Shown: positions 5,495 to 59,687 of the stretch, piece after piece
How the letters are laid out: each line of letters starts with the position of its first letter
Numbering within the stretch: position 1 is the first letter of the stretch
Assembly (NCBI GenBank): GCA_034509925.1
Contig: CM067528.1
Coordinates: 10,882,001-10,946,000, forward strand
Direction of reading: 5' to 3'
Source of the DNA: Hirudinaria manillensis
Taxonomy: Eukaryota > Annelida > Clitellata > Hirudinida > Hirudinidae
Length of the DNA stretch: 64,000 bases
The notes under the pieces: generated by a model
Database searches by the model: none
Seen by the model: only the letters and a program-made list of their open reading frames with translations
What the model was told of the DNA's origin: nothing
Made by a program: the position numbers and the translations under genes

Positions 5495-6840
5495 ATGAAA
5501 ACTCTCTTGTTATCAACATTTGCTGGTAAGATTAACAATTTGATGTGAAGAATTCTAAAAAACTAAGATAAGTTTAATCACAGCCTTTGCATTTGCTGGC
5601 ATTGGGAGGAATGGATGGTGTACAGAAAAGATTGTGGAACGTTTGAAAAGAGATGCGTGGTTGACTCTCCAAAGTTGGTTTCAGAGGAGGAAATATATTA
5701 ATAATATTTAAATATACATATTTATAAATATTTATTTGAGCTTTAAATTAAGTGGATGTATTAAATGACTCGATTTCATTCTCCAGTGAAATAAGTCCCA
5801 CTTGTGATAGCAGCGATCAGATTTGCAGCGATCATGCTGGTATGTTTTTATTGAATATTTTTTTAATTTGAAATTTATATCATACAGTTTTTATATTTTG
5901 ATAACAATCGCATAATTTCTCCTAGATTCTTCAACATATGCGAGCTGGGAAAACTTTGTTGCAAAATTAAGCAAACCAGTTAATCTTAAAATTTGAAATG
6001 AAACTAAAAAAGTTCCGATCACGATTTCTGTGGACGGCAAAACATACCTCGTATGAAAGTTATTTTCGCGAAATTATGTAACATGAAATATTTATAGATT
6101 TAGTTCTGCTAAAGAATTATAACCATTTCTCTGATGTAGAATGAATTTTAAAATAAATATTAATATTCGTTTTTAGATCTTAAAACGCAGATTGAATGGC
6201 GAGTTGGACTTTTACAAAAAGTGGAACGATTATGTAGAAGGATTTGGAAATCCTGAAAGAGAATATTGGATTGGTAACTTTTAATTTAATTATATTCAAT
6301 TAAAATCCAAATTTTAAAATAATTGCTGAAAATACAGACGCAAACACTCCATTTGTTGTCTCAGGGTGCTAAACGTTTTAACCTCAACTGGTACATTCGA
6401 AATGACTGTATTTCTGGAGAGCTTCAATAACACACAGGCATTTGCTCGTTATATAACCTTCGAGATTGATGGTCCCGAAAACAACTACAAGCTAACTGTT
6501 GGTGGATAGCGGCATAGCTGGAGATGGAATGGCTGCTCAAAACAACATGATGTTTTCCACTCAGGATCGGGACCAAGACACACACGGTGAAAGCTGTGCA
6601 GTTTCGTTCAGAGGCGCCTGGTGGTATTCTGGTTGTCACGAAAGCAATTTAAATGGAATTTATTATGACGGTTCAGGAGTTCACACCAATTTTGCCGATG
6701 GGTTTAATTGGTATCCATTCATGGGTCATCATGTATCAATGAAGAGAGCAGTAATGGCTTTGTCAAGTGAACATCACGTTCATTCAAATATTATTCCATT
6801 TATTCCATTCAGTAAATTAAAAACATCGATTACTGATTAA
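5495..6840 (+). pseudogene. F1: FReD lectin-like pseudogene
   Basis: A recognisable seven-part FReD gene with several lesions. Segments: 5495-5525 (signal peptide, MKTLLLSTFA), 5584-about 5671, 5787-5839, 5936-6050, 6177-6273, 6358-about 6510 and the last exon to 6840. Exon 2 lacks one base before the conserved HWEEW, which shifts the frame. Exon 4 has TGA at 5994-5996 where relatives have GGA. The acceptor before exon 6 reads TT instead of AG at 6356-6357. Part of the YSGTAG segment is deleted. The intron between exons 6 and 7 is absent, so the ligand-binding exon follows directly. The last exon is extended past the usual ALSLK end to 6840. A TATATAATA at 5411-5419 may be its old TATA box. 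A fragment of the same subtype lies at 28.7 kb. Confidence 0.85.
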
Positions 6841-7724
6841 AAAATAAATGCTTTCCTTCAGGCCACTTCCAAGTGTAGTTCTTAGAATTTAGAATCTAAA
6901 GATAGCGTTACAGCTGACTCATAGAAATGCATTTATGAAATAACACAAAACTGCCTAAAAATTCGGTTCGATTTGAAGATAGATTTTATCTTGAAACGAT
7001 GGGCAAGGAATCATCTTCTTATCCACTTCCAGTTTTGTCCCTGGGTGAAGACACCTTCGGGTTAAACAATAGGAGCGTTGAAGGACAAAGAAACCACTCA
7101 TCCGACATAAACCATATTAGATTCCTAAGAAATTGATTGCAGCTGTCAGCCTAGGGGTCCAAAAAATTTATATATAAATATATAATTTTAGATATTTTGG
7201 TCAATAGATGTCAGAAACAAACTTCGATGAAATATGAGTGAGTTGATGGAATAGGGCCATTTTATTATATTTGGTTAGAGATTACCTGGAAGGATAATAT
7301 TTAAATCAAATTAAAGTTTATTATTTGCTCAGCTTGGACAATTGTGAATTAATTAATTTTTAATCTATTTAGTTGTTAAACTCATTTGTAGAAGAAGAAA
7401 AGTGTGCGGACATCCAAGCCACGAATAATCTACAAAAAATGGTACAAAATTGAAAATTATATTTAAATAGCAGATGTAAAGATTAAATAAAATGTTAAAA
7501 ATATAAAGTTGTGAGATGTAAAGAATGAGAAATTGTTAAATTGTTTTTTATGTTGATTATATCGACCTTACCTATCACTTGCTTGTCATTATTCAATCAA
7601 GTTGAAATAGTTGAACAGATTGTCAATGCAGAGAAAAGGATATATACACCGGGTAAATATCTGTTCTAAATCACAAAGCAATCTGAATATCTCTGCAGAA
7701 AATCATATCTTAACAGCGTTGACG
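6841..7724. other. Spacer between F1 and F2
   Basis: No gene seen. The first 200 bases or so, downstream of F1, are matched by sequence downstream of the exon-7 fragment F8 at about 28.87-29.16 kb, so F1 and its 3' flank were once duplicated as a block. Confidence 0.5.
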
Positions 7725-9244
7725 ATGAAGATATTCTTTCTAGCAGCTCTCATAGGTAAGGTTATTTGTTGTAATTGGCTGAAAGTAAAGTAATCTTTGA
7801 AGTATCAAATATGTCTTCGTTAGCCTTCGCCGGTGCAGGACATTGGGAGGATTGGATGGTCTTTCGAAAGGATTGCGGAACTGTTGAAAAGAGATGCATG
7901 GCGGACTCTTTAAAGTTGGTGGCCGAAACATATGAAGCCGATAAAATCTGGTAACAGACTGTAATGAATTGTTGAATCTTTTTTTTTTTTGAAAACTTCA
8001 GCGAAATAAATCCAAATTGTGAGAGTAGCCAAGAGAGCTGTAAAGATGAACAAGGTGGTTAAGTTATTAATTGCTCTAACCTATGAATATGGTCACTAAA
8101 ACATTGCTTGATTATTAATTCTCAGCGTCTTTAGTTTATCCCAGCTGGGCGAAAGCCAGAAGAAAAATAGATAACAGTATCTACCTAAGGATTGGTACAG
8201 AAACTAAAAAGGTTCCGATCATAATTTCTCCGGATGGAACAAAATACCTTGTGAGATTTTAGTTCTTAACATTACCAAGAAAATGGCTCTGTCAATCAAC
8301 TTGTAGTATTTTTATTGATATTTACCACAGCTTTTGTATAATAATTAATATAATATGAATAACACTATGTAATAAAATAATTTTTAATTCGAATATTTTG
8401 CTTTCAGATCTTCCAACGAAGAATGAATGGCGAAGTCGATTTTTACAGGAAATGGGATGATTACGTCGAAGGATTTGGAGATCCAGAAGGAGATTATTGG
8501 ATTGGTTATTGCAATTATTCCATTTAATCTTACGATATCGGTTCAGAATATCTAGTAAAAGTTAAAAAATAATTAATAATATAAAATTATTAATGATACA
8601 ATGATTAATAAATTAACTCCTATTACGTAGGTCTACGAGCATTAAACATTTTAACTGCCACTGAAAAGTTCTCCATGACAGTATTTCTGGAGACTTTCAA
8701 TAATACCCAAGTGTTTGCTCGCTATGAAACATTTGAAGTTGATGGTCCTGAAACTTACTATAATCTTAAAGTTGGCAGCTACAGTGGAACAGCAGGTAAA
8801 ACCTGACAATCAAAATACAGTAAAATTTAAATGTCATCGTATATCAACTTTTAATCCTAATTAACCGAAAGTACAGAACTGGGAATTCAATCCTTTAAAG
8901 GACTCATATTGGCACATATTGCACATCTCCAAATTTATTTGACATTTGTTTTGTATCAAAAAGCAAAAAAAAATCTTTTTCAATTCGCAGGAGATGCCAT
9001 GGCACCGCAAAACAACATGATGTTTTCCACTCAAGACCAGGATCACGACGCCTCGACCGAAAACTGTGCTGTCGTGTACAGAGGGGCCTGGTGGTATGCT
9101 GCGTGCCATAGCAGTAACCTGAATGGATACTACTATGAAGCCCCTGGAAACCACAGCAAATACGCTGATGGAATTAATTGGCAACCGTTCATGGGTTACC
9201 ACGTTTCCATGATGAAAGCAATAATGGCCCTGTCATTGAAATAG
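7725..9244 (+). CDS. F2: secreted FReD lectin-like protein, 271 aa
   Basis: Exons 7725-7755, 7824-7914, 8002-8054, 8126-8250, 8408-8504, 8631-8795 and 8991-9244 give an uninterrupted 271-residue frame with GT-AG introns. The start at 7725 was chosen because MKIFFLAALIAFAGA makes a clean signal peptide; an in-frame upstream start would prepend a polar stretch. The mature N-terminus GHWEDW begins a four-Cys module (C-X6-C in exon 2, two Cys in exon 3). The FReD follows: [19 protein letters not shown], then YSGTAG, then DQDHD (the usual Ca2+-site position), NCAVVYRGAWWYAACHSSNL and a short ALSLK tail. Sequons NNT (exon 6) and NHS (exon 7) may be glycosylated. In the FReD family the last region binds ligands, often acetylated sugars; the ligand here is unknown. 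F2 differs clearly from the type-A genes. Confidence 0.9.
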
Positions 9245-10243: not shown

Positions 10244-11640
10244 ATGATTACGATTCTCCTTTTATCAGCGGCACTAGGTAAGAATATTTAAGAAGAATAT
10301 TTACAGAAGTTATGTCTTGAAAGTCTTCAAACTTCAAATTTGACTTTTTCGCAGCTTCTGCATATGCCGGTCATTGGGAGGAGTGGCTGATTTACCGAAA
10401 AGATTGTGGAACGTTGGAGAAGAGATGCGTGGCAGACTTCCAAGGCTTGTTTGGGAAATTATGAATTTATTTTATAGTATTAAATACATTAATGTTCCCC
10501 ATACTTACAGCGAAATTAATCACTTGCGCGAATAATGGACAAATTTGTGGAGAACCGAGTGGTAAGGTTTCCAATAATTTCACTTGTGACGTGCACTTAA
10601 ATTCGTTTCCTTCTTTCAAATTTACAGTGTACTCAAGCTGGGATGAAGCCATTACGAAAATAGGTGTAGCGATTAATTTAAGGATTGGAGAAGAGAGTAA
10701 AAATCTTCCGTTCATGATTTCTGAGGATGGCAAAAAATATCTTGTGAGAATTTGGAATTTCGTTAAAGACAAATATTCAAATGCTTAACTTAATTAACTT
10801 GATTTAAAATTTCTTCTGCATTGTTAAAATCGAGCCAAATAAATGTTCTTAGATCTTCCAACGCAGAATGAATGGTGAAGTCGATTTTTATAGAAAATGG
10901 AATGATTACGTCAACGGCTTCGGAAATTCTGAAGGAGAATATTGGATTGGTGATTAATTATTTTGTTTGAATTTGTTTTTTAAATACTAAATATTTCTTA
11001 ACTTAAATAAAATAACGTTCAAATGATCTCCAATCATTATCATTACTATCTTATAGACTTAATTTTCCCACAATTATTACCTCGTAGGCCTGAGAGCACT
11101 GAATATTTTAACTTCAACTGGAAAATTTGATATGACTGTATTTCTAGAAGACTTCAATAAAACAAAAGTGTACGCCGACTACGGCATATTTAAAGTCGAT
11201 GGTCCAGAAAATTACTATAAAGTTACAGTCGGTAATTACAGTGGCACAGCAGGTTATAATGTAATATTAAATAAAATCTTTTATTCGAAAAAAATAAAGT
11301 TTAATCTTTGCAATGTAATTCTACAAAGCTTTGAAATAATTTTATATAATAAAGTATGAAAAATAATTTTAAACCTTCCTAAGGCGATGGCATGGCGTTC
11401 CAAAACAACATGATGTTCACAACTCAAGATCAGGATCACGACACCCATGCTTTTGATAACTGTGCCGTCGTATACCATGGGGCGTGGTGATATGCTGATT
11501 GTCACTATAGCAACTTAAATGGGCAGTATTTTCCGGCTCCAGGAAATCATACCAGTTACACCGTTGGTGTGGATTGGGAACCATTTAGAGGATGGTATGA
11601 GTCCTTGAAAATCGCAGTAATGGCCTTGTCATTAAAATAG
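10244..11640 (+). pseudogene. F3: FReD lectin-like gene with one nonsense codon
   Basis: Segments 10244-10277, 10355-10444, 10511-10561, 10628-10743, 10853-10949, 11088-11252 and 11384-11640. The signal peptide begins MITILLLSAALA and the mature part GHWEEW. Everything is open except TGA at 11488-11490 in the invariant GAWWY motif, where the second Trp codon is expected. Downstream the frame runs on to the normal ALSLK stop at 11638-11640. The exon 2/exon 3 join differs from all relatives: the phase shifts by one and the donor reads GC (CAAG/GCTTGT), giving ADFQA-KLITCANNG. With a conventional GT donor the frame would close. It may be a young pseudogene, or an allele or assembly error affecting one base. 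Confidence 0.8.
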
Positions 11641-12078: not shown

Positions 12079-12657
12079 TTACAAAAATATTCTATCCTTG
12101 GATTGCTGCTCCATAAGCTTTCTCTTAACGATGCTTTTCTTCTTCAGCTCAAAGATCTTGGCTCTCAATGAATTTGGATCCTTGAATTTAATTTTGTCTT
12201 CCTCATCGTCTTCATCATCGATGTTATCGAACGTGATATCATATACTACATGATGCTTATTCTGTGCTTCGCTTTCTTTAACTAAAGTTCCTTCGACGAC
12301 ATGAAGTATAGGAATATCGTCCCCGCGCCTGTAGTATAGCCACAAGTTGCAGCTTTTGCATTTGAATCTATATTGCTTTTCAACGCCTTCTTCTCTCTCC
12401 AAGTAAACGACTTTGTCGCCCTGAGAGTGCATCCTGAGCACGTGTTCCGGTGCATCGATGATGCGAGCTCCATCTAGTTTTCTGAGTGGAAACATTTCAA
12501 GTGGACTATCCAGAATTAGAGATATTTGTCCACACAAACAAAAATGAACGTGTATAGGTTTCTGGTCTTTGCATCCGTCTTGGCTCCTTAAGGATACAGA
12601 TTCAGTTATTCGAGAAATGATTTTAACCATTTTGATTCTATTTGCTTTGATTGCCAC
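12079..12657 (-). CDS. STEEP1-like paralogue, diverged and shortened
   Basis: A single-exon frame of up to 192 residues. Alignment with the second copy places the natural start at the internal ATG 12630-12628 (MVKIISRITESVSL, against [14 protein letters not shown] in the other). The STEEP1/CXorf56 (UPF0428) core is clear: [20 protein letters not shown], a [13 protein letters not shown] segment, [20 protein letters not shown], and VVEGTLVK. The C-X-C and C-X2-C pairs look metal-binding. The C-terminal third, a long charged helical part in the family with a 'STIDEEE' segment, is eroded. STEEP1 binds STING and promotes its exit from the ER in mammals. Flanks on both sides match those of the 17.5-kb copy, so this is a local DNA duplication. 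Whether this copy is still functional is uncertain. Confidence 0.8.
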   Translation of the reverse strand: MAIKANRIKMVKIISRITESVSLRSQDGCKDQKPIHVHFCLCGQISLILDSPLEMFPLRKLDGARIIDAPEHVLRMHSQGDKVVYLEREEGVEKQYRFKCKSCNLWLYYRRGDDIPILHVVEGTLVKESEAQNKHHVVYDITFDNIDDEDDEEDKIKFKDPNSLRAKIFELKKKSIVKRKLMEQQSKDRIFL

Positions 12658-13871
12658 AAATATAAAATAGGAAAGAATATCATAGAGGAGGATATATATT
12701 GCCTAGAAAGATCATTTATCGAACAATGAAATAATATTTTTTTAAATGTTACTAATAAACCCTATTGGTTAATTTTAAATATCGACTTAAATATCATTTG
12801 AATTATATTATTACTTTTACTTATGAAATTATGCAAATAATTTAAAAGATTAAAATGTACATGTTTATTAATGTTAACTTGGATTGAAATATAGATAATT
12901 CGTTTTCAATTTAATTAAAAATTCCTAAATTTGATTTATGAACCACTATGCTTTAACAAAACATAATTTATTATTAATCGTAAGTATGTCTCCACGTATC
13001 CATGGAGAAATCTACAAGAATTTGTCCTATTTCAATATCATTAAGTTGCTTTCCTAAACCCATCAATAATAACGTTACCTATTGATATTTTATTCTACAA
13101 AACATGTTACGGACATCAAGTATTATATAAGGAGTCTTATTATGTTGATGAACTTTTGTGAAACCTGTAATAAAAATTTTTTTCCTCAACGGAAGAGACC
13201 CCACGCTCCGTTGCGGAAACTCCGAGAAACAACATCAAAAGCGTTTCTTGGCGGATTCTCATCAATATTCAAATTTTAGTCTTAACTTTTATTGAATACT
13301 AATTAATTACTCTTTTGCGATCGCTAAAATCAGCATTTTGACCGAAGTTTACCGGTAATTTTTAAGATAGAGACAGAAAACTTGTGATTCTGGTACCTGT
13401 CCTATCTTTATGACGCGCACTGTATATCGGCTTCAAGGTAAAAATGACCGCCAACCAATATTAATCCACAAATTGTTATGGTTTTGGTTAATTAAATTCT
13501 TATTTAACGTCAAAGAACCACCAGATGCCTTTTTCTTATTTCCTTCCTTTTATCGAAACTAAATTACTTTACATTACTGTAAATTATCCTACAACTTTAC
13601 ATCGATTATAATTCCAAATTGTCAAAAATATCTGTGATTGATATAACAATTCATTATTCGACCAAATTAAGAAATTCTTACTTAGATTGCTTCGAAAATG
13701 TCTCAGATTTTCATGTTTCATGTGTGAATTAAATGCATCTCGAATGAAGAGTTTCAATTTGGTTACAAGTTAGACCTTTGATCACAGCTTTAGAATTTAG
13801 ACTTTCAACCGACGATGACATTATTTAAACGGTTAAGGGGGTGGCTGGTTTTGAGAGTTAGAATGCTGGAA
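12658..13871. other. Spacer with STEEP1-duplication flank and TIR-element relic
   Basis: About 12661-12860 resembles 18180-18460, upstream of the other STEEP1 copy. About 13080-13330 resembles the interior of the TIR element at 49496-50309 (for example the part encoding FCETCN here and FCKTCN there). I could not find terminal inverted repeats around this copy. The short ORF at 13082-13279 belongs to it and is not called as a gene. Confidence 0.55.
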
Positions 13872-15476
13872 ATGCAAAGATCAATTATCAAGATTATATT
13901 TTTATCAATAATTTTCAGTAAGACATTTAAATTTTTTATATAATTTGAATTTTCTAATTTAGAGAAATAATTTATTCTAGTCTCCGCGAGAGCTGGGCAC
14001 TGGGAAGATTGGATGGTTTATAAAAGAGAATGTGGAACACTTGAAAGGAGATGCGTGGCTGATTCTCCAAAGTTTATATAAGAAGCACAGCATTGCTATT
14101 AAAAAACTTAAGTTTTTAAAATTTTGTTTCTTATTTTACAGCGAAATTATTCCTGTTTGCGAGATCAGTAGTATTGCTTGTGGCGAACGGAAAGGTGAAC
14201 TTACAGTTGCATTAAGTTTTTATTTCATTTTTTCCACAAATTTTTACTTGAAATTTTAATGACAGTTTATTCAACTTGGGAAGAAGCCGTTACAAATATA
14301 GGTGATGTAATTCACCTAAAGATTGGAAATGAGGAAAAGAAAGTTCCAATTACTATTTCTTTGGATGGCAAAATATATCTTGTAGGTTTTCACTTGTTAT
14401 GGTCTGAACTGAATTAATCTGAACTAAACATTAAAATTAAATTCAAGTTATCAAAATAAGTTATATTTCGATTAATATTTTGTGATTAATTCAATCTTAT
14501 TGTTTCTTCAGATCTTCCAACGTAGGTTGAACGGTGAATTGGATTTTTATAGAAAATGGGACGATTACGTTGATGGCTTTGGAAATGCTGAAGGAGAATA
14601 TTGGATTGGTTATTTTTGTAATCAGTATTTATAACTTAATTTGATGGCCTTAAATGCTTTCAAATTTTAAAATAGTTTAAGATAAAATTCACACAGGACT
14701 TAGAGCACTAAACGCTTTGACATCAACTGGAAAATTTGACATGACTGTTTTTCTGGAAAGCTTCAATAACACACAAGTGTTTGCACGTTACGGCACATTT
14801 GAGGTCAATGGCCCAGAAGCGTTTTACAAGCTTAACATTGCTGATTACAGTGGCACTGCAGGTCGAGTTGTGACAAATAAGTTGAAAGCTGTAGATTCAT
14901 AAATTTCAAGGATTTTTAAATGATATCTTTATTGACATTAATGAGAGCATTCATGACTCTAATTACATTCACCCATTTATTTACATAATACTTCGATCCA
15001 CTAGTAAATAGCGGATCTAAGGTGAGAGGTGTACCCCTCTTCCCTCCGGCGAAATTCAAAGAACAATTTTCATTATTAATTGAATATTTACTTACGTCAA
15101 ATTCTTCTAGACCTGCTCAAAGCTTAGAATAATAATACTAAACCATCTTTTCGCATGATTAGTTATTAAGTAGTTTTTGATAATAATAATTTTACTCCTT
15201 TGATTCATTTTGATCCCAGGCGATGCAATGGGTCCGCTCAATAACATGATGTTTTCCACCCAAGACCAGGACCACGACGCTTATGCCGACGGCAACTGCG
15301 CTGTCACCTATCACGGAGCATGGTGGTATGGGGCTTGTCATGCCTGCAACCTGAATGGAAAATATTTTCCTGGACCTGGAAATCATACTTCTTTTGCCAA
15401 TGGTATGAATTGGCAGCCGTTCATGGGTTACCACGTAACCATGAAGAAAACAATTATGGCCTTGTTTCTAAAATGA
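13872..15476 (+). CDS. F4: secreted FReD lectin-like protein, 274 aa
   Basis: Exons 13872-13917, 13981-14071, 14142-14194, 14266-14381, 14512-14608, 14697-14861 and 15220-15476 give an intact 274-residue frame. The signal peptide is longer than in relatives ([20 protein letters not shown]) and cleavage before GHWEDW is likely. The four-Cys module has ECGTLERRC and two Cys in exon 3. The FReD has [31 protein letters not shown] and [20 protein letters not shown]. The extra Cys in CHAC is shared only with F10 (CHSC) and could pair or alter the pocket. The tail is ALFLK. Its 3' flank (about 15480-15700) resembles the 5' flank of type-A genes at about 18620-18800, which suggests F4 once sat directly upstream of F5 before the RBM18/STEEP1 segment separated them. 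Confidence 0.9.
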
Positions 15477-15991
15477 TTGCCAGTGAATTTGGGTTTCGCA
15501 ATTTGAAGATAATTGAACATGATTGTTATTATGATTGGCCAAGGCTTAGTTTCGGAGTTCGGATTAATGTTTTTTTTTTCAGTTTTTTTTTAATCTCTAA
15601 TCTTCCATCAAGGTTGAGAGTATTAATGTACCCTGTATGAATATATTTGAAGAAATGTGATTTAATCAATTCCAAAGCATTGCATCTGCAATCAGTAGAT
15701 TGATTGATTAGAAAAGTCATCAAGCATTGTCTGTTTATTTATTAACATTTGTCAAAGCATCCCCTGTTCGCTATTGTTCCTGGTTGAAGAAATTGTAGGG
15801 GCATGTAACAATATTGTTTCAAAACAATTTCAAAACTTTTTCTTTTATGATCTATTATAAATTGTGCAAAATAAAACTTTAAAAATGAAAAATATTATAA
15901 AGTCTATTAAAATCATACATTGTTTTAAATTAGTGTCTTCACAAATTTCTTCGCAACATATGGCGTAGTTTGTTGTTGTTACGGTTAGATA

Positions 15992-16420
15992 ATGGATTCG
16001 TCCGGTGCTGGATGCCGACTGTGGATAGGGAATTTAGATCCTTATTTGACCGAATATTCTCTTCTCAAAATATTTCAGAATTTTAAAATCTCAATTAAGA
16101 ACTTTAACATCGTTTATCACAGAAGTGGTCCGGAAAAAGGCAAATCGAAGGGTTATTGCTTTTTAACTGTAGCCACAGACGAAGACGCACAGAAGTTAAT
16201 CAAAGGTCTGGATTCTAAACACGTTATGGGTTCACGGATACAAGTACGACATGCTCTCAATGATGGCGAATTCAGAAATACCCAAGTTGAGCCAAAGAGA
16301 CCTGTCAAAGCAAAACAGAACAACAGTGCAGCAATTAGAAATCTGCAAATCAAAAAAATCGAAGCAAAACTGAGGTCAATGGAGAATGATAATCCTTCAA
16401 TGTTAACCAAACAGACTTGA
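15992..16420 (+). CDS. RBM18: RBM18-like RNA-binding protein, single exon
   Basis: An intact intronless frame of 142 residues. One RRM fills the N-terminal two thirds: RNP2 is LWIGNL in CRLWIGNLDPYLTEYSLLK, RNP1 is KGYCFLTV, and the spacing is that of the RBM18 family, which begins RLWIGNLDPKITEYHLLK. The C-terminal part keeps the family's short helix IKKIEAKLRSMEND. The protein is shorter than vertebrate RBM18 (about 190 residues) because the extreme C-terminus is missing. RBM18 is a conserved, poorly characterised nuclear RRM protein. An AATAAA lies near 16787. Lack of introns may be ancestral in this lineage or indicate a retrocopy. Confidence 0.88.
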   Translation: MDSSGAGCRLWIGNLDPYLTEYSLLKIFQNFKISIKNFNIVYHRSGPEKGKSKGYCFLTVATDEDAQKLIKGLDSKHVMGSRIQVRHALNDGEFRNTQVEPKRPVKAKQNNSAAIRNLQIKKIEAKLRSMENDNPSMLTKQT

Positions 16421-22571: not shown

Positions 22572-22619
22572 TTGGAGATTTTAAGATGGGTTTACATGGT
22601 GGTTATACACAATATTTAT

Positions 22620-23235: not shown

Positions 23236-23269
23236 TTGGGAACATTCGAAACAGTGACTTACATATAGA

Positions 23270-26954: not shown

Positions 26955-27897
26955 GAGATGCAAATGCCGGGTATTGGGAGGAATGGATAGTTTACCGAAA
27001 AGAATGCGGAACAGTGGGAAAGGGATGCGTGGCTGATTCTTCAAGGTTAGAATGGGAGTTGGAAAACAATACTTTTATATACGACTAATAACTTCATCAA
27101 AATCTCCAGCGAAACAAGTCCTACTTGCGAGATAAGCGGGCAGCTTTGCAGTGAACAAAGCCGTTGGGATTAAATATTTTTTAAAAAATAATTTCAACTT
27201 GCAAAAACACCTTTAAAAATTCCATGCCTAACACCCTCAACAACAGTCGTCTACTCTACTTGGGAAGAAGCAGTAACGAAAATATACGTATCAGGTGGAA
27301 ATTGAAAATTTGAAATGAATCCAAAAATGTTCCAAGTCTATCGATGGCACAAAATGTCTTGTAAGATTTAATTTTAAAAACATACCCGAAGCAATAATCC
27401 ACACTTTAAATATATAAATAAACAAGGTTTTGTTTTTAAATTTTTCATTTGACTTTTGATACTTTCTGCATGGATGTCCATAAGCTGGGGATTGGTCGTT
27501 GCCTTAGTACTTGCCGCAAGTTAATTGATAAGCCAAAAAAACATCCGCGTTACGATTTGTGTGTCGGTAATTAGCTTGTGAAAATTATCCCATGAAGAAA
27601 TAAATAATTTGTTGATAGATGGTCGCCGTGTAGAATGCCGTCGAAGAGCTGAGTTTTAATCAAAGCATCACCATTGCATCCGTTTTCGGGATCACGACTA
27701 CTTCGAATGACAACTATGCTGTCACATACAGGGGGGTCTGGTGGTATGCTGCCTGCCATAGCAGTAACCTGAATGGATATTACTATGAAGCCCCTGGAAG
27801 CCATAGCAAATTAGCAGATGGTGTTAATTGGAAACCTTTCATGGGTGACCATGTTCCCATAAAGAGAGCTACAATGGCTTTATTATCCTTGGAGTAA
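26955..27897 (+). pseudogene. F7: chimeric FReD relic (type-B exons 2-4 joined to a type-A exon 7)
   Basis: Exon 1 is missing. Exons 2 (about 26955-27045), 3 (27110-27162) and 4 (27247-27360) match F10 closely, but exon 4 carries TGA and a deletion. The type-B downstream flank follows (about 27370-27490), then the type-A upstream flank up to CATCCGTTTTC at about 27688, and the sequence then switches abruptly into the middle of exon 7 (GGATCACGAC...). That exon stays open through CHSSNLNG to a stop at 27895-27897. Exons 5-6 are gone. Unequal recombination within the array is the likely cause. Confidence 0.8.
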
Positions 27898-28698: not shown

Positions 28699-28866
28699 AG
28701 CAGTGCTCTTTTTCAGAGGAGCCTGAAGGTATTCTGGTTGTCATGAATTTGAATGGAAATTACTACGACCAGTAATTATTAAGTCCGCGACTTCTCACCA
28801 ACTTTGCAGATGGAGTGAGTTTCGATCCATTCATGGGTCATCAATGAAGAGAGCAGTAATGGTTTG
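28699..28866 (+). pseudogene. F8: exon-7 fragment of F1 subtype
   Basis: A degenerate copy of the ligand-binding exon. Readable pieces are CAVLFQRSLKVFWLS-like, then NLNG, the DGVSFDPFMGH region and a MKRAVM-like end, with deletions and stops. It matches F1 better than any other copy, including 300 bases of 3' flank (against 6780-7030). Its left edge is fused to type-B exon 5 sequence. Confidence 0.7.
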
Positions 28867-29719: not shown

Positions 29720-29783
<64 letters not shown>

Positions 29784-33258: not shown

Positions 33259-34730
33259 ATGATGTTTATTAAGATTATTTCTTTATTGGCAGTCATCGGT
33301 ATGAGTAGTGATACGATTAATAATAAAATTAATTCATTAAACATATTTGAAATGCAAATAAATTAGTCAGGATTTTTAATTCGTTTATAGTATTAAATTG
33401 TAGTTTAAATTTACTTCTGCTTTCCATAGCTTCTGCAAGTGCTGGGCATTGGGAGGAATGGATAGTTTACCGAAAAGAATGCGGAATAGTGGAAAAGAGA
33501 TGCGTGGCTGATTCTTCAAGGTTAGAGTGGGAGAAGGAAAACAAAACCTTTCTGTACGACTAATAACTTCATCAAAATCTCCAGCGAAACAACTCCTACT
33601 TGCGAGATAAGCGGGCAGCTTTGCAGTGAACAAAGCCGTTGGGATTAAATATTTCTTTTTAATAATTTCAACATACAAAACACTTTTATATATTCCATGC
33701 CTAGCACCCCCAACAACAGTCGTCTACTCTACTTGGGAAGAAGCAGTTACGAAAATATACGGATCAGTTTTTTTGAAAATGGGATATGAATCCAAAAATG
33801 TTCCAATCATGATATCTACCGATGGCACAAAATATCTTGTAAGATTTAATTTTAAACATATACCGCAAGCAATAATCTACACTTTAAATATATAAATAAA
33901 TTTTAAATGAAAAATTGCAAGAATTCAGTGTCATTTATTTCGTAGATATTCCAACGCAGACTCAATGGCAATGTAGACTTTTATAGGAAATGGAATGATT
34001 ACGTTAATGGATTTGGGGATGCAGAAGGAGAATTTTGGATAGGTGATTAATAAATCATTAAAATTTAAACTCGATCTATTTTAATTATTTATTATTTATA
34101 ATTCCGCAGGACTTCGAGCATTAAACATCTTAACTTCAACTGGGATATTCGATATGACTGTATTTTTGGAGACTTTCAACGGTACTCAAGCATTTGCTCG
34201 ATATGGCATCTTTGTAGTTGGTGGTCCTGAAAGCAACTACAAACTGAATGTTGGAGGATATAGTGGCACAGCAGGTAAAATTATAAATAATAACAGTAAA
34301 AGTATATAAATAAAAAACAAAATAATGTTAATTTTTTTCAAACATTTTTGAATTTATTTGCTATTTTTTTAAAGTATACAAATGGTTTTAATATTAAGCT
34401 ATGCTAATTATAAATTTATTAATAAAATTGAAATAGTTAATAATAAGAATACATTATTAGCATTTCCTATTGGCAGGCGATGCAATGAATTACCAACAAA
34501 ACATGATGTTTACCACTCAAGATCAGGATCATGATACTTGGAGCGGCAATTGTGCAGATAAATTCAGAGGAGCCTGGTGGTATGCCGATTGTCACAGTTG
34601 TAACCTGAACGGACACTATTATCCCGCTCCAGGAAACCATAGCAACTATGCAGACGGCGTGGTCTGGTTTCAATTCACTGGCCATCACGAATCAATGAAA
34701 ATAGCCGTAATGGCCTTGTCGTTGAAATAA
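33259..34730 (+). CDS. F10: secreted FReD lectin-like protein, type B, 272 aa
   Basis: Exons 33259-33298, 33430-33520, 33585-33637, 33720-33838, 33946-34042, 34110-34274 and 34477-34730; intact. Signal peptide [18 protein letters not shown], then [20 protein letters not shown]. Exon 3 reads [13 protein letters not shown]. Exon 4 reads [20 protein letters not shown]. The FReD has [32 protein letters not shown], then [20 protein letters not shown] with an additional Cys as in F4, and [15 protein letters not shown]. Sequons NGT and NHS. It is the only complete type-B gene; relics of the same gene stand at the same place in the other repeat units (F7, F12, F14 and 23.3 kb). Confidence 0.92.
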
Positions 34731-37997: not shown

Positions 37998-38306
37998 ATA
38001 TCCCAACGCAGGATCAATGGTAAGAGATACTTTTGTAGGAAATGGAATGATTACGTTAGTGGATTTGTGGAATTATTTATCGGTGATTAAGAAATCATTA
38101 TAATTTAAACTCGATCAATTTAAATTATTTATTATTCCATAGGACGTCGAACATTAAACATCTTAAATTCAACTGGGAAATTAGATATGACTTTATTTTG
38201 GAAACTTTCAACGGTACTCAGTCATTTGTTCGATATGGCATCTTTGTAGTTGGTGGTCCTGAAAGCAACTACAAACTGAATGTTGGAGGATGTAGCGGCA
38301 CGGCAA
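37998..38306 (+). pseudogene. F12: type-B FReD relic (exons 5-6)
   Basis: Exon 5 (37998-about 38090) is degenerate, with deletions near its end. Exon 6 (38143-38306) matches F10 but has a one-base deletion near ACTTTATTTTGGAAAC that shifts the frame, and GGATGT where the family has the YSGTAG Tyr. Exons 1-4 and 7 are absent. The type-B 3' flank follows directly after it. Confidence 0.8.
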
Positions 38307-39052
38307 GTAAAATTTTACAAGCAAAGAGAAATCATAATAATGTTAAGCTCAGGCTTATTTATTGAATCACATAGCAGTGACTTTTCTTTCAATATCAATA
38401 ATGTTTATCTGTGATTGAATCGAGGTTTTGTTTTTAAATTTTTCACTTGACTTTTGCCACGTTCTGCATCTGCATACACCGGGGATTAGTTGTTTCCTTG
38501 GCGGCTAGCGCACGTTAAGTCATAAGAAAAGACATCCGTGTGATGAACTACATTTGTCACTAATAATCTTTTGAAAATTATCGTCTGAAGAAAAAAAATT
38601 ATTTGTTAAAAAATGGTAGCATGTTGAATTCTCCCTTTACTTTCACTTTATTCTAAAACAGTAACGCTGTGTTGAATGCTGTCGAAGAGCTGAGTTTTAA
38701 TCAAAGCCTAACCAATGCATCCGTTTATCCCTTATTTTGCAAAATAAAATCTCAAATAACAACAAAATAGTGTCAATGCATCAAAGTTATTGAACAATTT
38801 ACATACGAATTCAAGCCGATTGATGAACGACATTAAGGTATGCCAAGGAATAAAAATGAAGGATTTCGTGAAAACTATAAAATAATTGGTATATAATTTT
38901 AAAAAAATCATACGTGAACTTCATCAAGTGACTCATGCTGAAGACGTTGAGAAATTGCAATCATTAACATGAACAGCCTGACAAGAAAAGGCTTAAATTC
39001 GCCGTTCGCAATGCATCGGTGTACGTTCTTCTTACTGGGGAGTTCTCTAAAG
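38307..39052. other. Type-B 3' flank and type-A promoter block before F13
   Basis: Same arrangement as before F11 and F15. No gene seen. Confidence 0.5.
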
Positions 39053-42253: not shown

Positions 42254-42948
42254 ATGTTCCAGCGATATCAATAATATTTAAACTCGATCTACTTTAAATA
42301 TTATTTATTATTCCATAGGACGTCGAGCATTAAACATCTTAACTTCAACTGGGAAATTCGATATGACTGCATTTTTGGAAACTTTCAGCGGTACTCAGGC
42401 ATTTGTTCGATATGGCCTCTTTGTCCCGAAAGCAACTACAAACTGAATGTTGGAGGATATAGTGGCACGGCAGGTAAAATTATAAATAACAACAGTAAAA
42501 TTATACAAGTATAAAACAAAATATTGATATTTAAAAAAAAGTTTTGAATTTATTTGCTAGATGTTTAAATATGCTAACGCATATTGATAGTTACTTTTAA
42601 TATTAAGTGATCCTAATTGTAAAGTAATTAATAAAAGTGAAATAGTTGATATTAAGCATGCGTTAGTTGAATGGGCATTGCTTTTCATATGGGCAGGCGA
42701 TGCAATGGATTACCAACAAAACATGATATTTACCATTCAAGATCAGTATCATGATAATTGGCACGACAATTATGAAGTTAAATTCGAAGAGCCTGGTAGT
42801 ATGCCCATTGTCGCAGTTGCAAATTGAGGGACACTATTATCCCTTTCTAGGAAACCATAGCGACTATGCAGACGTTATGGATTGGTTTCAATTCACTGGT
42901 AATCATGAATCAATGGAAATAACCGTAATGGTCCTGTCGTTGATATAA
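42254..42948 (+). pseudogene. F14: type-B FReD relic (exons 5-7)
   Basis: Exon 5 is reduced to about ten bases at 42254. Exon 6 (42319-42473) lacks about ten bases in the VGGP region. Exon 7 (42697-42948) keeps the outline but has one-base indels, loss of pocket residues and several substitutions (for example the GAWWY motif is destroyed). The match is to F10 throughout. Confidence 0.85.
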
Positions 42949-43708: not shown

Positions 43709-45338
43709 ATGATGATCAGGATCTTCTTTCTGTCTTTATTCATTGGTAAGAATATCAAATTTAGAGCAGTTTTTAATATTTTACATGCAAATTTAGTACA
43801 ATATTCTATATACTTATATAATTCAAGCATCCGCAAAAAGCGGGCATTGGGAGGAATGGATGGTATACAGAAGAGAATGTGGAACGATTGAAAAGAGATG
43901 CGTGGCTGACTCTCCAAAGTAGGTTTAAATATTGAAGTCTTAGTATCCAGTGTTTGATGCAGGCATCTTAGGGTAGAAGCTTTCACTATCCCAAAATTTT
44001 AATTTCCCCAAGTCAAGGAGATGAATAAAATCACTGATCAATACCAATGAATGTTATTGAAAGTAATTTTTTTATACACAGCGAAATTGTCCCGATTTGT
44101 AAAAACAGCAAAGAACTTTGCAGTGATTTGAGTGGTTGGGCCTTACTGAATTTATAATTTTAAACAATACAAAAATAATTAAAATATCTTCTAGTGACTT
44201 CAGTCCATGTCAGTTGGGAAGATGCTGTTGCAAAAATGAGCAAAACGATTAATCTGAAGATTGGGGAAGAAACTAAGAAAGTTCCTGTGATGATTTCAGT
44301 GGATGGCAGAAAGTATCTTGTGAGGATTTAATACATCTTGATAGAAAATAATTTAATTCAAAAATTGTAACATTAAATTAATTATTTGTTGCAATGGATA
44401 GTACGTGATATTAACTGCTTTTCATGCGTGTAATGTTTAAAAAAACATATTCAAAATCTTCCAACGTAGATTAAATGGTGAGATAGACTTTTACAGAAAC
44501 TGGAATGATTACGTTGATGGTTTCGGAAACCCAGAAGGAGATTACTGGATTGGTTAATTCATATTGATTATTAATTGATTGTATCTCACATTTCTAAATT
44601 CTTCTGAAATTCGTATTCTGGAGTTAAAAATAATTCATTCTATTTTCTTCTTCTTGCAGGGCTTAAGGCACTGAATATTTTGACTTCAAAGGATAAGTTT
44701 TCTATGACGGTGTTCCTTCAGAGCTTCAATAACACTCAAGTCTATGCTCATTATGGCACATTCCAAATTGGTGGTTCTGAAACTAACTACAAACTTAATG
44801 TCGGCGGTTATAGTGGCACAGCAGGTTAAATTACAAATACATTAATTTGGAAAATATATTTTTTGTTCAACTATTCATCTAATCACAATCCAAACATTTA
44901 TTTATTTTTTCTAAATATATTTCAAATATTTTTATTGAAAAGTGCGTAAAAGTTGTTCCATTATTTTCATAATTAAGATGAAACAATCTAACCTCAACAG
45001 GTTATTTTATTATTTATGGGTTATTTTAACGGCTAATTCGAGAATAATTATTATCTATTTACTAAATCTTATTTGATTAAATAGGTGACGCAATGACTCC
45101 ACAAAACAACATGATGTTTTCCACTCACGACCAAGATAATGACAAAGCGGATGGCAGCTGTGCTGTCACATACAGAGGTGCCTGGTGGTATAATGCTTGC
45201 CATCAGAGCAACTTGAATGGATATTACTATGAAGCCCCTGGAAACCACAACAATTCCGCAGATGGCGTTAATTGGCTACCGTTCATGGGTCACCAGGTTT
45301 CCATGAAGAGAGCTACAATGGCTTTGACTTTAAAGTGA
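43709..45338 (+). CDS. F15: FReD lectin-like gene, type A, with damaged splice acceptor
   Basis: Segments 43709-43745, 43828-43918, 44082-44134, 44195-44319, 44456-44552, 44660-44824 and 45085-45338 keep an open 273-residue frame. The acceptor before exon 5 reads AA (44454-44455) in place of the AG present in every relative, so normal joining of exons 4 and 5 is unlikely. The nearest AG downstream (about 44469) would break the frame. Otherwise the product matches F11: [14 protein letters not shown], the four-Cys module, [20 protein letters not shown] and [12 protein letters not shown]. Could be a recent pseudogene, a non-AG acceptor in use, or a sequence error. Confidence 0.65.
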
Positions 45339-50000: not shown

Positions 50001-53000
50001 AGTAATGTTTTTTTTTTAAATTAAAAGCTATGAGGAGATCGGATATCTAGGATGACTGATGGATTTTCCAGAAAGTTCCATGAAATATTATTGGTGAATG
50101 GGTACCTGAGGACTTTAACTCTCTGAACGATATATTTTATGATTCATCGGATGATGAATAAATTTTATTTAAGTTGGCAAAGCTAAAAATTCGACTTTTG
50201 TTTACCCCCGGCTAAACCCTGGTTGAATTTAAGCCGGGGCGGGACCAGGACCGGGGAATGTTAAAAAGCCGGGGTTCAGCCGGGTCCGGGGTCCCCGGTC
50301 GATCACTATTGCAAGGTTCCAGAATTTATCCAGTCTGTCTAACACTCCTCAGTCATTATAGGTTCAACAATCCCAAAATACTATTTATTACTGAGTCATA
50401 AAGTCATTTGTTATGGCTGAATAATTTCCAAATGGTGAGTTTATTTTCACATGAAAATAAAGTCATATTTAAACCTTTCCTTCAGTTTTGTTTTCCTTTT
50501 TTGGATTTGGCAATTTTAAATTCTCAAGGTTTGTAAGAGCCTGAAACAAATACAAAACACTGAGCTATTAAAATGAATTGGTTTCAAAATATTAATTTCA
50601 ATGTAATCTGCAATATTGCGACAATTATATATTTAATTTTCCTCTTTATACAACACATTTCCATAAAAATGCCAAAAGAATTCTTGGCTGAGTTAATTGC
50701 CTTGCATGCAGAACCAGATTCCTTTTTTTGTTTTTCTGAATCTTCATCACTTTTAGTATTAATTTCTAATTTCTTAAACCTGAAAAAATATATGAACATT
50801 TAATTAATTGAAATGTGTCTATACATGTCTGCTCAGTCTAGATATTTCTATTTACATACTCAAAATTAATCAATTACTCTATATATAATACGGGTATTTT
50901 AATCAGTTTTGGTTTTAATTTAAACATTTATCAACCTCTGCATTAATGCTGTTGAATCATCTGCAAATGTCAAAAGAAGGAATGAGTTTGCACCATGTTT
51001 GCATAACCCAAAAGGTTTCTTTGATGCAATATCCATTTTCATGTTATCTATAAAGGTAGTGCATATTCTTGAGGAAATTAGTGATACTTTAAACATTGCC
51101 TTCAACAGTTTCTGAGCTTCTTCCAGATCATGGAATGAATGCACCTTTATCGTTTCAGAGTCATGGTTTACCACTGCAATGACTTTATGTTGTTCAAATA
51201 TCCACTCAATTCTGCCAACCACAGAAGAGTTCTCGATAAATCGAAGCATTATTCTTGTAAAATCATTGGACAATTTTGGGAACAAATCCACATCTTTTTC
51301 TTTAATAGTGTTCTTTAGTCTTATAACTTTTAATTTCACCTGTCTCATACGTTCTCCATTGCCACTCAATAACATCAGGCACTCAGTTTTCTCTTCCAAG
51401 ATTTGGACCTCACATTGCTTTTTGATGTCTTCATAGGCAGCTAATTTTTTAATAAGTTGCATTTCATGGGATTTCAACTCCAGAAGTTCAAAGGGAATAT
51501 TGGCTGCAAGCACACGATTATTCTCAACCAATTTTCGAAACTCTGAGATTCCTTTCCTTGGGCCAATAGCAAAGAATCTATTACTCTCTCCATCATATTC
51601 AATTATGATATTGTTGTTATTTGACTCAAAACCTTTGACATGAAACAGTACAATAGCATACTCAGAAGGTGAGACTTGAATGTTGCAATGATCTATTAAT
51701 TCAATGTTTTGTTTGAAACACTCTATCACATTTGAAGGCCAAGATTTTGAAGCCCGATCTTTATCATGACTTGCTGTCCACGTTAAAGTAGCATGAAGTG
51801 AAGATTGCCAAGTAACTGAGCATTGCAGTTTCTTCAGAGCAGATTCTATGTTATCCTTGTATATCTTGTTAATTAACAAAAACTCATAAACCTTAAAAAA
51901 ACATAAAATAGTTGTTAAATAACACCATGACTAAAACTAAGATATAACATTCACTTTTTTGTCTATGTCTATTTTGACATCATTTGGAACAAATGATGGT
52001 GGTTTCAGCCAATCAAATCCTTTGGGTATGACACCAAACTCTTCGTAGAATGGAACAAACACAAATTCTTCACTAGCAGCTTTCAATTGAAATTTGTCTA
52101 CAGCAGAATTTAAAAAAAAAGGACAAAATTTAGTGCCATGTAATATTATAAAAAGCCTCTACTACTTGAAGTCACATAAAAATTGGGCTTTTAACGTCAA
52201 AAATCTTATTCCAAAGAATATCAAATTTACAAAAAATAAAGATTACTTCATATTTCAGTTATACAGCAATAAGTAATTATTATACAATTAATAGTAAATA
52301 ATAATAGTGATCTTCCTCCTACCAATTTCATCTTCAAGTGTGATTATTGCAATCCCATCATGAATCCTTAAATTGACTTTACCAAGCATTTCAAAATATT
52401 GAATTGGTGTGTTCCCATTCATGACTTGGAATTGAGTGGTCTTTGGGAGTTTTTGAACCGACATCATAGTTCCTTGGAATGGTTTGGAACACAAGACTGA
52501 CAACACATTTTCGTAATCTAAGGTGTAAAAAAAATCAGCTATAAATCGGGTTTAATTTATTGGCATTCAGGGTTTCATTGCTGCATGAAATGGTGAGAAC
52601 CAGCAGCCATTACATCAAATATTACACGTAAAGACACAGTCTTTCAGGCATTGATTTTAGGACTGGCACAGCTCCCCTATAGCTCACATGCATGGAGTTA
52701 TACAAATGACATATTATTAAATATAAGTCAATCACTTGGCAATAATGGCAATGGTCTGTATGTGTCACGTCCAATATATAAGATCAGAATTGAAATGAAG
52801 TTCATTGGGCAATTTGGTGATTGCTATACAAATGGCTAATAGATTACAAAATGCTTTCACTTCCTGATAAAATGCAAAAGACACTCAAACGTTTAGCCAA
52901 ACATAAATTTAACATCATCCTTGGAAAGCTATAAAATGAATTACATTTGTAATATCTTCCAATACCATGAAGTCACACCAATAAGATGTGCAGATAGATA

Positions 53001-55492: not shown

Positions 55493-55671
55493 TGTCCAAG
55501 AATGGTAAACAGGTTATAAATTGATTGATAATAAACGTTGGGACGACTGACAAAACATGACGATAAAAATAATAAATAGCTTCAGCTTTAGTATGAAAAC
55601 AAATTAAAAATTATAACGTATTATTATATCAGCTAATACTACTCAGAAAATGGGTCAGTTATAAAAATGCA

Positions 55672-56000: not shown

Positions 56001-56024
56001 ATTGGTTCTCTAGAACAACTAAAC

Positions 56025-57476
56025 ATGAAAATCGTTCTTTTCTTTTTCTGCATCCTCGGTAAGTTTGCAATAATTAAAATTTAATATTACTTCAATTAAA
56101 ATGATTTTCTAGCTTTTTATTTTCAGCTTCTGCAAATGCCGGGCATTGGCAAGAGTGGCTAGTGTTCCGAAAAGAGTGCGGAAGTCTGCAAAGAAGATGC
56201 ATTGCGGATTCTTATGGGTTAATGATGATAGTGACAGTGCAATTAAGAATCATAATTTTTAGTCTAAAAGTATCCAGAAAATATAATATATGTATATTTT
56301 CAAATATGGTTTTACAGTGAAAGCAAAGATAATCCTGTTTGCGTAGATGTGGGACAGTCATGTAGTGGCCAAAATGGTTTGAAATTGTTACATTGCATTT
56401 TAAAAGGGCATAAATATTATAAATTTAAAATCGATTTTAATAATCAACATACTAATATCAATGTATCTTACTTAAATTTGGGGGTTATATTACAAGGTTC
56501 ATTTTATTACCTTTGCGCAGTTCTCTTCTCAAATTCAGAAGAAGCCCTTACGAAGTTGAGCAAAACAATTAGTTTGCAGATTGGAAGTGATATAATAAAA
56601 GTTCCTATAATGATCTCTGATGATGGGACAACTTATCTCGTGAGGATTATTCAATTGTTTTATTCCTTAAATGCTAATCGTAAGTGTCAAATAGTCAAAT
56701 TTATCAATTACAGTAAGTTCGAAAGTTCGAAGATTTAATATAAAAAATTTAATTTAATCTTTGCTTTTCAGATCTTCCAAAGAAGACTTGATGGTTCTGT
56801 TGATTTTTATAAAAATTGGAATGATTACGTGAATGGCTTTGGAAATCCAGACGGAGAATATTGGCTGGGTTAACTAATCTTAATGTTAAATTTACTACCG
56901 CATTAAACGTTGATTTAATTAATCTACGATAACAATCCATCAGGACTTCGATCACTGAACAAACTCACGTCAGGACGAAAGTTTGCCATGACAGTATTTC
57001 TCGAGAGCTTCGATAATAATCGGGTGTATGCTCGTTATGGTACATTCAATGTTGGAGGTCCAGACACCAACTACAAACTCACTATTGGCGACTACAGTGG
57101 AACTGCAGGTATTGAACATTTCGAATGATTGAACAAAGCCAAAGATAATAAAGCTAATTTAAGTTAATATAATCAAAGTAACGGTTATTAAGTTCAAATT
57201 TCAATCGTTTAATAATCTATAGGAGATGCAATGGAATATCATAATGGCATGGCCTTCACCACTTTTGATCAAGATCACGACAAGGCCACCTACAACTGTG
57301 CCGTTAATTTCAAAGGTGCCTGGTGGTACGATAACTGTCACATCAGCAATCTGAATGGACATTATTTCAATGCTCCTGGAAGTCATGCTAGCTTTGCTGA
57401 CGGCATAAATTGGAAACCGTTCAAGGGCTATAATGTATCCATGAAGAAAGCAATTATGGCACTGTCCTTGAAATGA
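56025..57476 (+). CDS. F16: secreted FReD lectin-like protein, 272 aa
   Basis: Exons 56025-56058, 56127-56217, 56318-56376, 56521-56639, 56772-56868, 56944-57108 and 57223-57476; intact. Signal peptide [16 protein letters not shown], then [20 protein letters not shown]. Exon 3 is longer than usual (59 bases) with CVDVGQSC. Exon 4 reads [18 protein letters not shown] and lacks the Trp found in most copies (SWEEA). The FReD has [58 protein letters not shown] and [15 protein letters not shown], ending ALSLK. Sequon NHS is replaced by SHA, and the exon 6 sequon by DNN. It stands outside the main array, beyond the PARP-like gene, and is among the more diverged copies. Confidence 0.92.
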
Positions 57477-57914
57477 TTGGAGATTGCTTGCAAAGCAACG
57501 ACTAAATTAAAGTCGTTAAGCCATTTTGGTTTATTAAACTTGATTATCTTCCCTTAAAAATGGTTTAAATAAATTGCAGCATGTTGATTAAATATATTGT
57601 CTTTGTTTAATTCTAAATATCTAAAAGTTATATCATGCAAATGGTTTTGACTAGACGTTATGTCAAAAACATTCATTACAAGAGAGCAATTAATATTGCT
57701 TATTCGATCGACAGAGGTGGTTTTTGACAGGATGAAACGAATGTTATACAAATCTTGCATGCAACTTGGAGGCACGTTTCGGATGTCATTGATTAAATTC
57801 CTGATGTAAAAAGTAAAATTAATAATTTTGACGAAAACTTGCATTATAAAGAAGGTAATCCGGCCACGTTCGAGCTCAGTAAATTAAAATCTGGTGGTTT
57901 TAAAAGATACAAAG
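57477..57914. other. Spacer between F16 and F17
   Basis: No gene seen on either strand; the minus-strand frame at 57554-57844 is not recognised. Confidence 0.45.
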
Positions 57915-59134
57915 ATGGCTGCGATTCTCTTCTTACCCGTTCTCTTTGGTTAGTCTGCGGCCAGTTTTTACGAAGCCTATGTAAAGCAAAACTTGTAAAT
58001 TTACAATGTTTTTAGCGTGTTTAGCTTCAGTCAAGGCGGCTCATTGGGAGGAGTGGATGGTTTGCAAAAAAGATTGTGGTATACTTGAGAAGCGATGCGT
58101 GGCAGACTTTTCTGGGTTACTTATTAACTTTCACAGTTTCTACTAATTACTTCAACTCACATTTTCATGCAGAGAGGTTAATCCTGTTTGTTCCAACAAT
58201 TACCAGTCATGCGACCAAGGCGGTTGAGTTTATATGAAATGTTTTCGTCTCAAATACATTATTTAATTATTTCAAATAAGAAATAAATTATTTATTTAGC
58301 TTGACTACATAATGGAATTAGAATTACTAAATAAAATTAATAAATTTAAAGCGCCTTAAAATTCACATCGAAAATGCGCGAGGCATTTTTAAAGTACTAA
58401 TCGATTTTACATTATATTTTATTTATATGAATTCAGATTCTGTAATAGCAGAAAATTCTAATTAATAAGTATAACTTGTAAATTAATTCCTTTCAGTGTA
58501 CTCCAGCTGGGAAGAAGTTGTTACAAAATTGAACAAAACAGTGAAGCTGAAGATCGGAAACGAAGTTAAAACAATCCCAATTTTGATTTCTCCGGATGGC
58601 ACAAGATTTCTCGTATGAAATCGTTTTATTTCTATTCATCATCAGAGTTTTTGTTTCATAAAATCACCTTTAAATCACCTACGATATTAACCCTTTTGTT
58701 AGGTCTTCCAGCGCAGGTTGAATGGTGCCGTAGACTTTTACAGAAAATGGAACGACTATGTCGAGGGTTTTTGAGATCCAGAAGGAGAATATTGGATTGG
58801 TAAATTAAAATTATCTAATCTATGTAATAATAATAATAATAATAACAACAATAATAATAATGACAATAATCTGTTTTTTAATTTTTGGTTTTTAAAGTGT
58901 AAACAAATGCCAAGGACATATCTTGATGTAGCGAAACATTATTAAATGCCAATAATTTACAATTCCAAGGACTCAGGGCGCTAAACATTTTAACTGCAAC
59001 CGCAAGATTCAACTTGTCAGTAATTCTACGAGATTTCAACGATACTCAAGTATTCGCTCGTTATGGTACCTTTGAAGTCGGAGGTCCTAAAAGTTACTAC
59101 AAACTTAGAGTCGGTAACTACAGTGGTACAGCAG
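57915..59134 (+). pseudogene. F17: FReD lectin-like gene, nonsense codon, last exon displaced by retroelement
   Basis: Segments 57915-57948, 58016-58115, 58173-58222, 58497-58612, 58703-58799 and 58970-59134. Signal peptide MAAILFLPVLFACLASVKA, then AHWEEWMVCKKDCGILEKRC with one extra Cys. Exon 3 reads EVNPVCSNNYQSC. Exon 5 has TGA at 58772-58774 where GGA (Gly of GFG) is expected; the frame is otherwise open. Exon 6 ends NYSGTAG with a GT donor. No exon 7 follows inside the window: an LTR retroelement occupies the last intron. If exon 7 survives it lies beyond 64000. Confidence 0.8.
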
Positions 59135-59627: not shown

Positions 59628-59687
59628 TAGCGTCGTAAAGGGATATCGATTCACTAGAGGTAAAAACAGCGAGTTTTAACGACAGAA

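Follow-up and report, generated by a model that had tools for sequence, protein, structure and literature searches.

A tandem family of fibrinogen-related genes with an N-terminal four-cysteine module in the leech Hirudinaria manillensis

A stretch of 64,000 nucleotides from the leech Hirudinaria manillensis (GenBank assembly GCA_034509925.1, contig CM067528.1, here C3; C3:10882001-10946000, hereafter the window), part of a genome of 148.4 Mb in 23 contigs, was found to contain a tandem family of genes encoding proteins in which a fibrinogen-related domain (FReD) is preceded by a module with four cysteines. Fourteen copies of the module, all on the + strand and lying between 5.6 and 58.2 kb of the window, were recovered by translated scans and tblastn, confirming a first-pass annotation of the same DNA that had described such a family at matching coordinates. 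The reading of these genes that we favor, to which a probability just under one half is given on the basis of their sequences, is that they encode secreted lectins of the kind reported from leeches as ficolins, expanded in tandem, which would bind acetylated glycans in a calcium-dependent manner and whose module would be a degenerate thrombospondin type-1 repeat (TSR).

Gene plan and protein architecture

Ten of the 14 copies consist of complete, uninterrupted frames of seven exons with GT donors, as determined by splice-site analysis, and encode proteins of 272–274 amino acids. Their six introns have phases 1,2,1,0,1,1 in all ten. One exon encodes the putative signal peptide, one each half of the module, and one a linker together with the first part of the FReD, the rest of which is spread over three exons. 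The earlier claim that the module is encoded by two exons of its own, with fixed phases in every complete copy, was thus borne out. AG acceptors were found throughout the ten copies except at exon 5 of copy F12, where TTCAAA precedes the exon and the next AG lies 14 nt inside it; excluding F12, nine copies are intact in every exon and splice site. Exon 2 was found for all 14 copies, and exon 3 was assignable in 14/14 by eye and splice signals. The encoded protein would be composed of a signal peptide, the module (about 43 amino acids) and an FReD of a reduced type, a hydrophobic exon 1 of 10–15 residues pointing to secretion.

The module is 42–45 residues long. Over the 14 copies eight columns are invariant (W3, W6, C13, G14, C20, D23, C32 and C39) and the mean column identity is 69%; four cysteines are present in 13 copies, and five in F16, which is damaged. 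Residues follow the order W-x2-W-x2-Y-x3-C-G-x(4)-R-C, with Phe instead of Tyr in two copies. The unit is flanked by phase-1 introns, and its halves are separated by a phase-2 intron inside the loop from Cys3 to Cys4. This intron interrupts a codon six positions ahead of Cys4 in nine complete copies; in F13 the distance is eight codons. Searches of Pfam and NCBIfam with E values up to 10 matched none of the 14 modules, TSP_1 included, and since HMMER filters drop weak matches, these misses leave room for a degenerate member of a known domain. PDB sequences gave no match to a single module sequence or to a module profile, and in the titles and abstract openings of the top-ranked literature matches no FReD with such a module was described. 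As the first-pass annotation had suspected, the module is unmatched in Pfam, NCBIfam and PDB sequences.

Constraint on the family was assessed by pooled NG86 estimates of the ratio of nonsynonymous to synonymous substitution rates (dN/dS) for the 45 pairwise comparisons among the ten complete copies, whose dS values of 0.63–1.88 are partly saturated. Ratios were 0.26 for the signal part, 0.16 and 0.21 for module exons 2 and 3, respectively, 0.35 for the linker, and 0.09, 0.18 and 0.13 for the three FReD exons, and the proportion of nonsynonymous differences exceeded that of synonymous ones (pN > pS) in between 0 and 6 of the 45 pairs, depending on the region. The module is real and constrained, and the family is being kept. 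Diversifying selection was seen in none of the seven regions by this crude pooled test, and the figures lend no support to an arms-race reading.

The C-terminal part of the proteins was analyzed with copy F11 as the query. It corresponds to Pfam Fibrinogen_C (PF00147; E = 2.9e-52, residues 79–270, 178.1 bits against a cut-off of 22), and its nearest solved structures by sequence were FIBCD1, ficolin-3 and MFAP4. Exons of the cluster also appeared among the matches to Fibrinogen_C. Alignment of the ten complete copies showed that the C-terminal cysteine pair, with its WW-x2-C motif, and the calcium loop are present in all of them, as is the D-x-D of that loop, whose Asp pair presumably binds calcium. 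The N-terminal cysteine pair (subdomain A) and the GGGW motif are absent from all ten, the place of the latter reading DG-x-x-YL-IFQRR in F11. No collagen-like region was found before the FReD, where only the module and a short linker stand. Mature proteins contain six cysteines in eight of the ten copies and seven in F04 and F09, so that these two could pair between chains.

In the excerpted text of PMC9449597, the ligand pocket of FIBCD1 is given as Y405, H415 and Y431. When these places were located in the leech proteins by counting along the sequence alignment, the pocket His (H415) was found in all ten complete copies, the 405 place held Tyr in six and Phe in four, and the 431 place held Tyr in five, Phe in three, Gln in F06 and Ser in F12, being aromatic in 8/10. 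The FReD would thus be a reduced one from which the N-terminal disulfide and GGGW have gone, and in which the C-terminal disulfide, the Asp pair of the calcium loop and most of the ligand pocket have been kept. Judged from these residues, the likeliest ligands of the FReD are N-acetylated or anionic sugars, with binding dependent on calcium.

Origin of the module

Descent of the module from a TSR is suggested by the placement of its residues and by its inner intron. In common with the TSR (PF00090), the module has W-x2-W, C-G, a basic residue before Cys3 and a similar loop between Cys3 and Cys4, together with an inner phase-2 intron like that of four TSR exons of the genome; it differs in its Tyr or Phe at the place of Cys1, in having four and not six cysteines, and in its shorter loops. 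Most TSRs read from the same genome follow W-x2-W-x2-C-x3-C-G, as opposed to the Tyr that the module has at the place of Cys1. TSR half-exon matches in the genome numbered 17, and 12 of them were read. Three of these are unsplit (L048, L054 and L055); five have a single GT before the stop, in phase 2 in L046, L047, L049 and L052 and in phase 1 in L051; and four are ambiguous, with several GTs (L050, L053 and L057) or none (L056). An inner phase-2 intron is thus found in four of the five unambiguous split TSRs, the exact codon varying among the introns compared. Both exons were visible only in L046 and L052. The former has two possible acceptors, both in phase 2, which put the interrupted codon either six or eight codons ahead of Cys4.

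A profile comparison by hhalign of the module alignment with 25 TSRs of the same genome gave a global score of 10.3, reached by 2/200 and 7/200 shuffles in which the Cys columns were kept fixed (9/400 together), and a local score of 13.75, reached by 8/200 and 19/200 such shuffles. When all columns were shuffled, the observed score was reached by 3/200 (global) and 13/200 (local). Two other candidate origins were rejected, neither of them showing an excess over shuffles: Sushi, represented by 12 sequences of the same genome (57/200 global, 119/200 local), and LDLa, represented by 14 (49/200 global, 101/200 local).

TSR arrays directly before an FReD of a different type were observed at two loci of C3 (L058, C3:7223701-7225100; L059, C3:11248901-11250000), and match positions indicate that apparent genes with multiple TSRs and an FReD are present at C11:4942373 and 4960094 too. 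This architecture is unnamed in the titles or abstract openings of the top-ranked literature matches. Because TSR arrays directly precede FReDs, the pairing of both domains exists in this genome, which was counted in favor of TSR descent.

A number of observations weigh against such a descent. With the W and Cys columns both fixed, the score was reached by 49/200 shuffles globally and 89/200 locally; being ordinary once the W columns are fixed, it indicates that the likeness to TSRs rests on the placement of W and C. The probability assigned by hhalign to TSR was 3.2% in the local comparison (E = 0.014, 12 columns) and 0.8% in the global one (E = 0.046), and the TSR set had been chosen by the canonical pattern, with three sequences added by hand. 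The module gave no match to the hidden Markov model of the TSR and has four cysteines instead of six; TSRs have about four residues more between CG and Cys3, the final loop of the module is short, and TSR descent requires the absence of one disulfide. The comparison with L046 covers the inner intron and not the outer exon borders, and the genes of this genome that combine TSRs with an FReD carry an FReD of a different type. The cysteine of F16 at the place of the Tyr was considered as a surviving Cys1 and was rejected: F16 is damaged, and the identical neighboring copy represents the same lineage.

With these points set against its residue order and intron, TSR descent of the module is judged a little less probable than not. 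The disulfides of TSRs pair C1-C5, C2-C6 and C3-C4. As a degenerate TSR, the module would have lost C1-C5 and kept C2-C6 and C3-C4 (C13-C39 and C20-C32), and it may form a stiff head, perhaps C-mannosylated at W-x-x-W, by which the FReD is presented or clustered.

As the main alternative, the module could be a lineage-specific new small disulfide domain that arose beside an FReD losing its N-terminal disulfide, and that serves as a head for oligomerization or partner binding. This origin is entertained tentatively, at less than even odds. It is in line with the lack of matches in the libraries searched and with the confinement of the module to one cluster. The F05 module, run against the whole genome, gave 16 matches, namely F05's own exon 3 and 15 matches to exon 2, of which 14 are in the window and one lies 1.9 kb past its right edge; no match was found outside the cluster with this one-sequence query, which may overlook divergent copies. 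The first cysteine pair is retained in all seven FReD genes read at C3:13.04-13.33 Mb and C4:7.32 Mb, which lack GGGW, and no module-like pattern was seen in the DNA fetched for them. The ten window genes were separated from six relatives, with 98/99 support, in an unrooted tree built on exons 5 and 7, in which 9 of the 13 inner branches are unresolved; of these relatives, five come from C3:13 Mb and one from C6, the C4 gene being left out. The TSR-like order of W and C, the position of the phase-2 intron in a loop that is likewise interrupted in TSRs of this genome, and the marginal profile match speak against a newly arisen domain.

The distribution of these features suggests that GGGW was lost first, and that the lineage leading to the cluster later lost the cysteine pair and acquired the module. 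A further version of the new-domain origin, in which the module, invented or reshaped in leeches, replaces the lost FReD disulfide and forms a constant assembly head for many FReD faces, in a leech-specific lectin arsenal, appears doubtful. L038 and L040, at C3:13.13 and 13.33 Mb, are FReD genes of almost the same sequence that stand in opposite orientation, about 0.2 Mb apart; the FReD relatives near them have other upstream frames.

Relation to leech ficolins and place of action

Vertebrate relatives with an FReD (ficolins, FIBCD1 and MFAP4) carry collagen, coiled-coil or membrane parts. The window proteins share with them the GA-x-W-x3-C-x2-NLNG core, the calcium loop and most pocket residues, and differ in the absence of a collagen-like region, of the first FReD disulfide and of GGGW, with the module present instead. 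We know of no such two-exon module in Tachylectin-5A. That protein is a secreted FReD lectin (1jc9, E = 1e-36), as the window proteins would be; the FReD of the window proteins is devoid of the first cysteine pair.

Under the name of ficolins, FReD proteins are reported from Macrobdella, Aliolimnatis and Hirudo in the excerpts available of three papers, mostly from salivary libraries (PMC3631404, PMC7303139, PMC7191736), and a ficolin is reported in the genome of Hirudo medicinalis (PMC7303139, excerpt). These proteins (Macrobdella decora cluster 686 and those of Aliolimnatis fenestrata and H. medicinalis) are leech FReD proteins like the ones encoded in the window; they differ from them in that their descriptions, in those excerpts, include neither an N-terminal four-cysteine module nor a tandem cluster. 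Two fully conserved cysteines, putatively forming a single disulfide, are given for leech ficolins in the excerpt of PMC3631404, and the one-disulfide FReD of the window proteins fits this. The window proteins are putative orthologs of the leech ficolins.

The first-pass annotation had put the cluster forward as a candidate for an undescribed system. The part of this that concerned the module stood, as it remained unmatched. The wording itself is too strong, since the proteins belong to the known leech ficolin kind, and the module may be a degenerate form of a known domain in view of its TSR-like order of W and C and its inner phase-2 intron. What is new is a module head on a known defense or saliva protein family, and not a new system.

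The proteins may act in the gut, the coelomic fluid or the saliva, and would serve leech immunity or form part of the saliva. The family could be made up of salivary proteins that act on the blood of the host, through adhesion or hemostasis, and not of immune lectins of the leech; in favor of this, FReD ficolins are reported from other leeches in salivary expressed sequence tags and in what salivary cells secrete (PMC3631404, PMC7191736; both in excerpt). Such a role seems rather doubtful: the word ficolin was absent, by text search, from the main text of a paper on antithrombotic genes of H. manillensis (PMC10671345), and annelid fibrinogen-related proteins are otherwise discussed as agents of microbe recognition in the excerpt of PMC5117596.

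Layout of the cluster and its significance

Within the window, the cluster runs from the ATG of the first copy, at 5495, to 59134, where exon 6 of the last copy ends (Table 1), and it continues with one more copy just beyond the right edge. Four of the 14 module copies are damaged, F12 is without an acceptor and three FReD-only fragments lie between genes, at 28.7, 38.0–38.3 and 42.3–42.9 kb, but given that nine copies have every exon and splice site intact and that pooled dN/dS is 0.09–0.35 in the seven regions, it is very improbable that the cluster consists mostly of decaying repeats without function.

Table 1. Genes and fragments of the FReD family in the window (positions relative to its first nucleotide)
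Feature	State	Position	Strand	Module exons
F01	Damaged: in-frame stop in exon 4	5495..6765	+	exon 2 end 5673; exon 3 5787-5839
F02	Complete seven-exon gene, 272 aa	7725..9244	+	7824-7914, 8002-8057
F03	Damaged: TGA in WW motif of exon 7	10244..11631	+	about 10355-10444, 10511-10561
F04	Complete, 274 aa, 7 Cys in mature part	13872..15476	+	13981-14071, 14142-14194
F05	Complete, 273 aa	19124..21073	+	19553-19643, 19817-19869
F06	Complete, 273 aa	24481..26049	+	24606-24696, 24864-24916
F07	Damaged: later exons missing or decayed	26969..27882	+	readable: 26969-27045, 27110-27162
FReD fragment	Without module	28712..28849	+	
F08	Complete, 273 aa	30175..31791	+	30300-30390, 30555-30607
F09	Complete, 272 aa, 7 Cys in mature part	33259..34730	+	33430-33520, 33585-33637
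F10	Complete, 273 aa	35463..37117	+	35582-35672, 35834-35886
FReD fragment	Exons 5-6 like, without module	38007..38332	+	
F11	Complete, 273 aa	39053..40811	+	39178-39268, 39436-39488
FReD fragment	Exons 6-7 like, with stops, without module	42317..42939	+	
F12	All exons open, no AG before exon 5 (44456)	43709..45338	+	43828-43918, 44082-44134
F13	Complete, 272 aa	56025..57476	+	56127-56217, 56318-56376
F16	Damaged: stop in exon 5; Cys at module's usual Tyr; retroelement downstream	57915..59134	+	

Among the damaged copies, exon 2 of the F03 module has an apparent GC donor and seems to end in another phase, no exon 1 of F07 was found by the scan, and exon 7 of F16 was not found within the window. 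The copy past the right edge (L080, C3:10947501-10949500) is identical to F16 over 700 bases around the module and, like F16, has a stop in exon 5; their identity reflects either a very recent duplication or an assembly effect. Behind exon 6 of F16, the stretch of about 59664-64000, which has a higher GC content (43%), opens with a + strand frame containing a SAP domain (E = 1.6e-10); behind it comes a long frame, resembling a gypsy-type gag-pol, which runs off the right edge of the window. Exon 7 of F16 may lie beyond this retroelement, at C3:10947011-10947283.

Other frames were observed inside the cluster. Two on the - strand, at 12079-12702 (207 codons) and 17517-18167 (216 codons), each encode a STEEP1 domain (E = 1.6e-30 and 2.4e-37 in Pfam, respectively) and have diverged from each other; being uninterrupted, they are perhaps retrocopies. 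An RRM domain (E = 4.9e-12) is encoded by an open frame between F04 and F05, at 15989-16420 (+), and an open frame of 336 codons at 50920-51930 (-) gave a sub-threshold match to PARP14 KH (E = 0.0025) and no PDB match. An Rfam scan of the window gave no match. Markers of wider affinity were also sought. Eight matches to the erythrocruorin-linker family, which is specific to annelids, agree with an annelid genome, and a let-7 match short of its threshold (47.5 bits against 53.5) suggested a bilaterian. A tunicate origin of the window was rejected: the Ciona spliced leader was found neither in the window nor in a search allowing one mismatch, and GH6 gave no match either, in a search that carries little weight.

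Leech ficolins have been known from salivary listings, and in the excerpts consulted their domain make-up and gene organization are barely described. For one leech species, the gene structure is now described in full, together with the number of copies and a hypothesis for the head domain, and the genome is also flagged for its genes with TSR arrays and an FReD. The cluster represents an FReD family that lacks a usual disulfide and carries a separate module.

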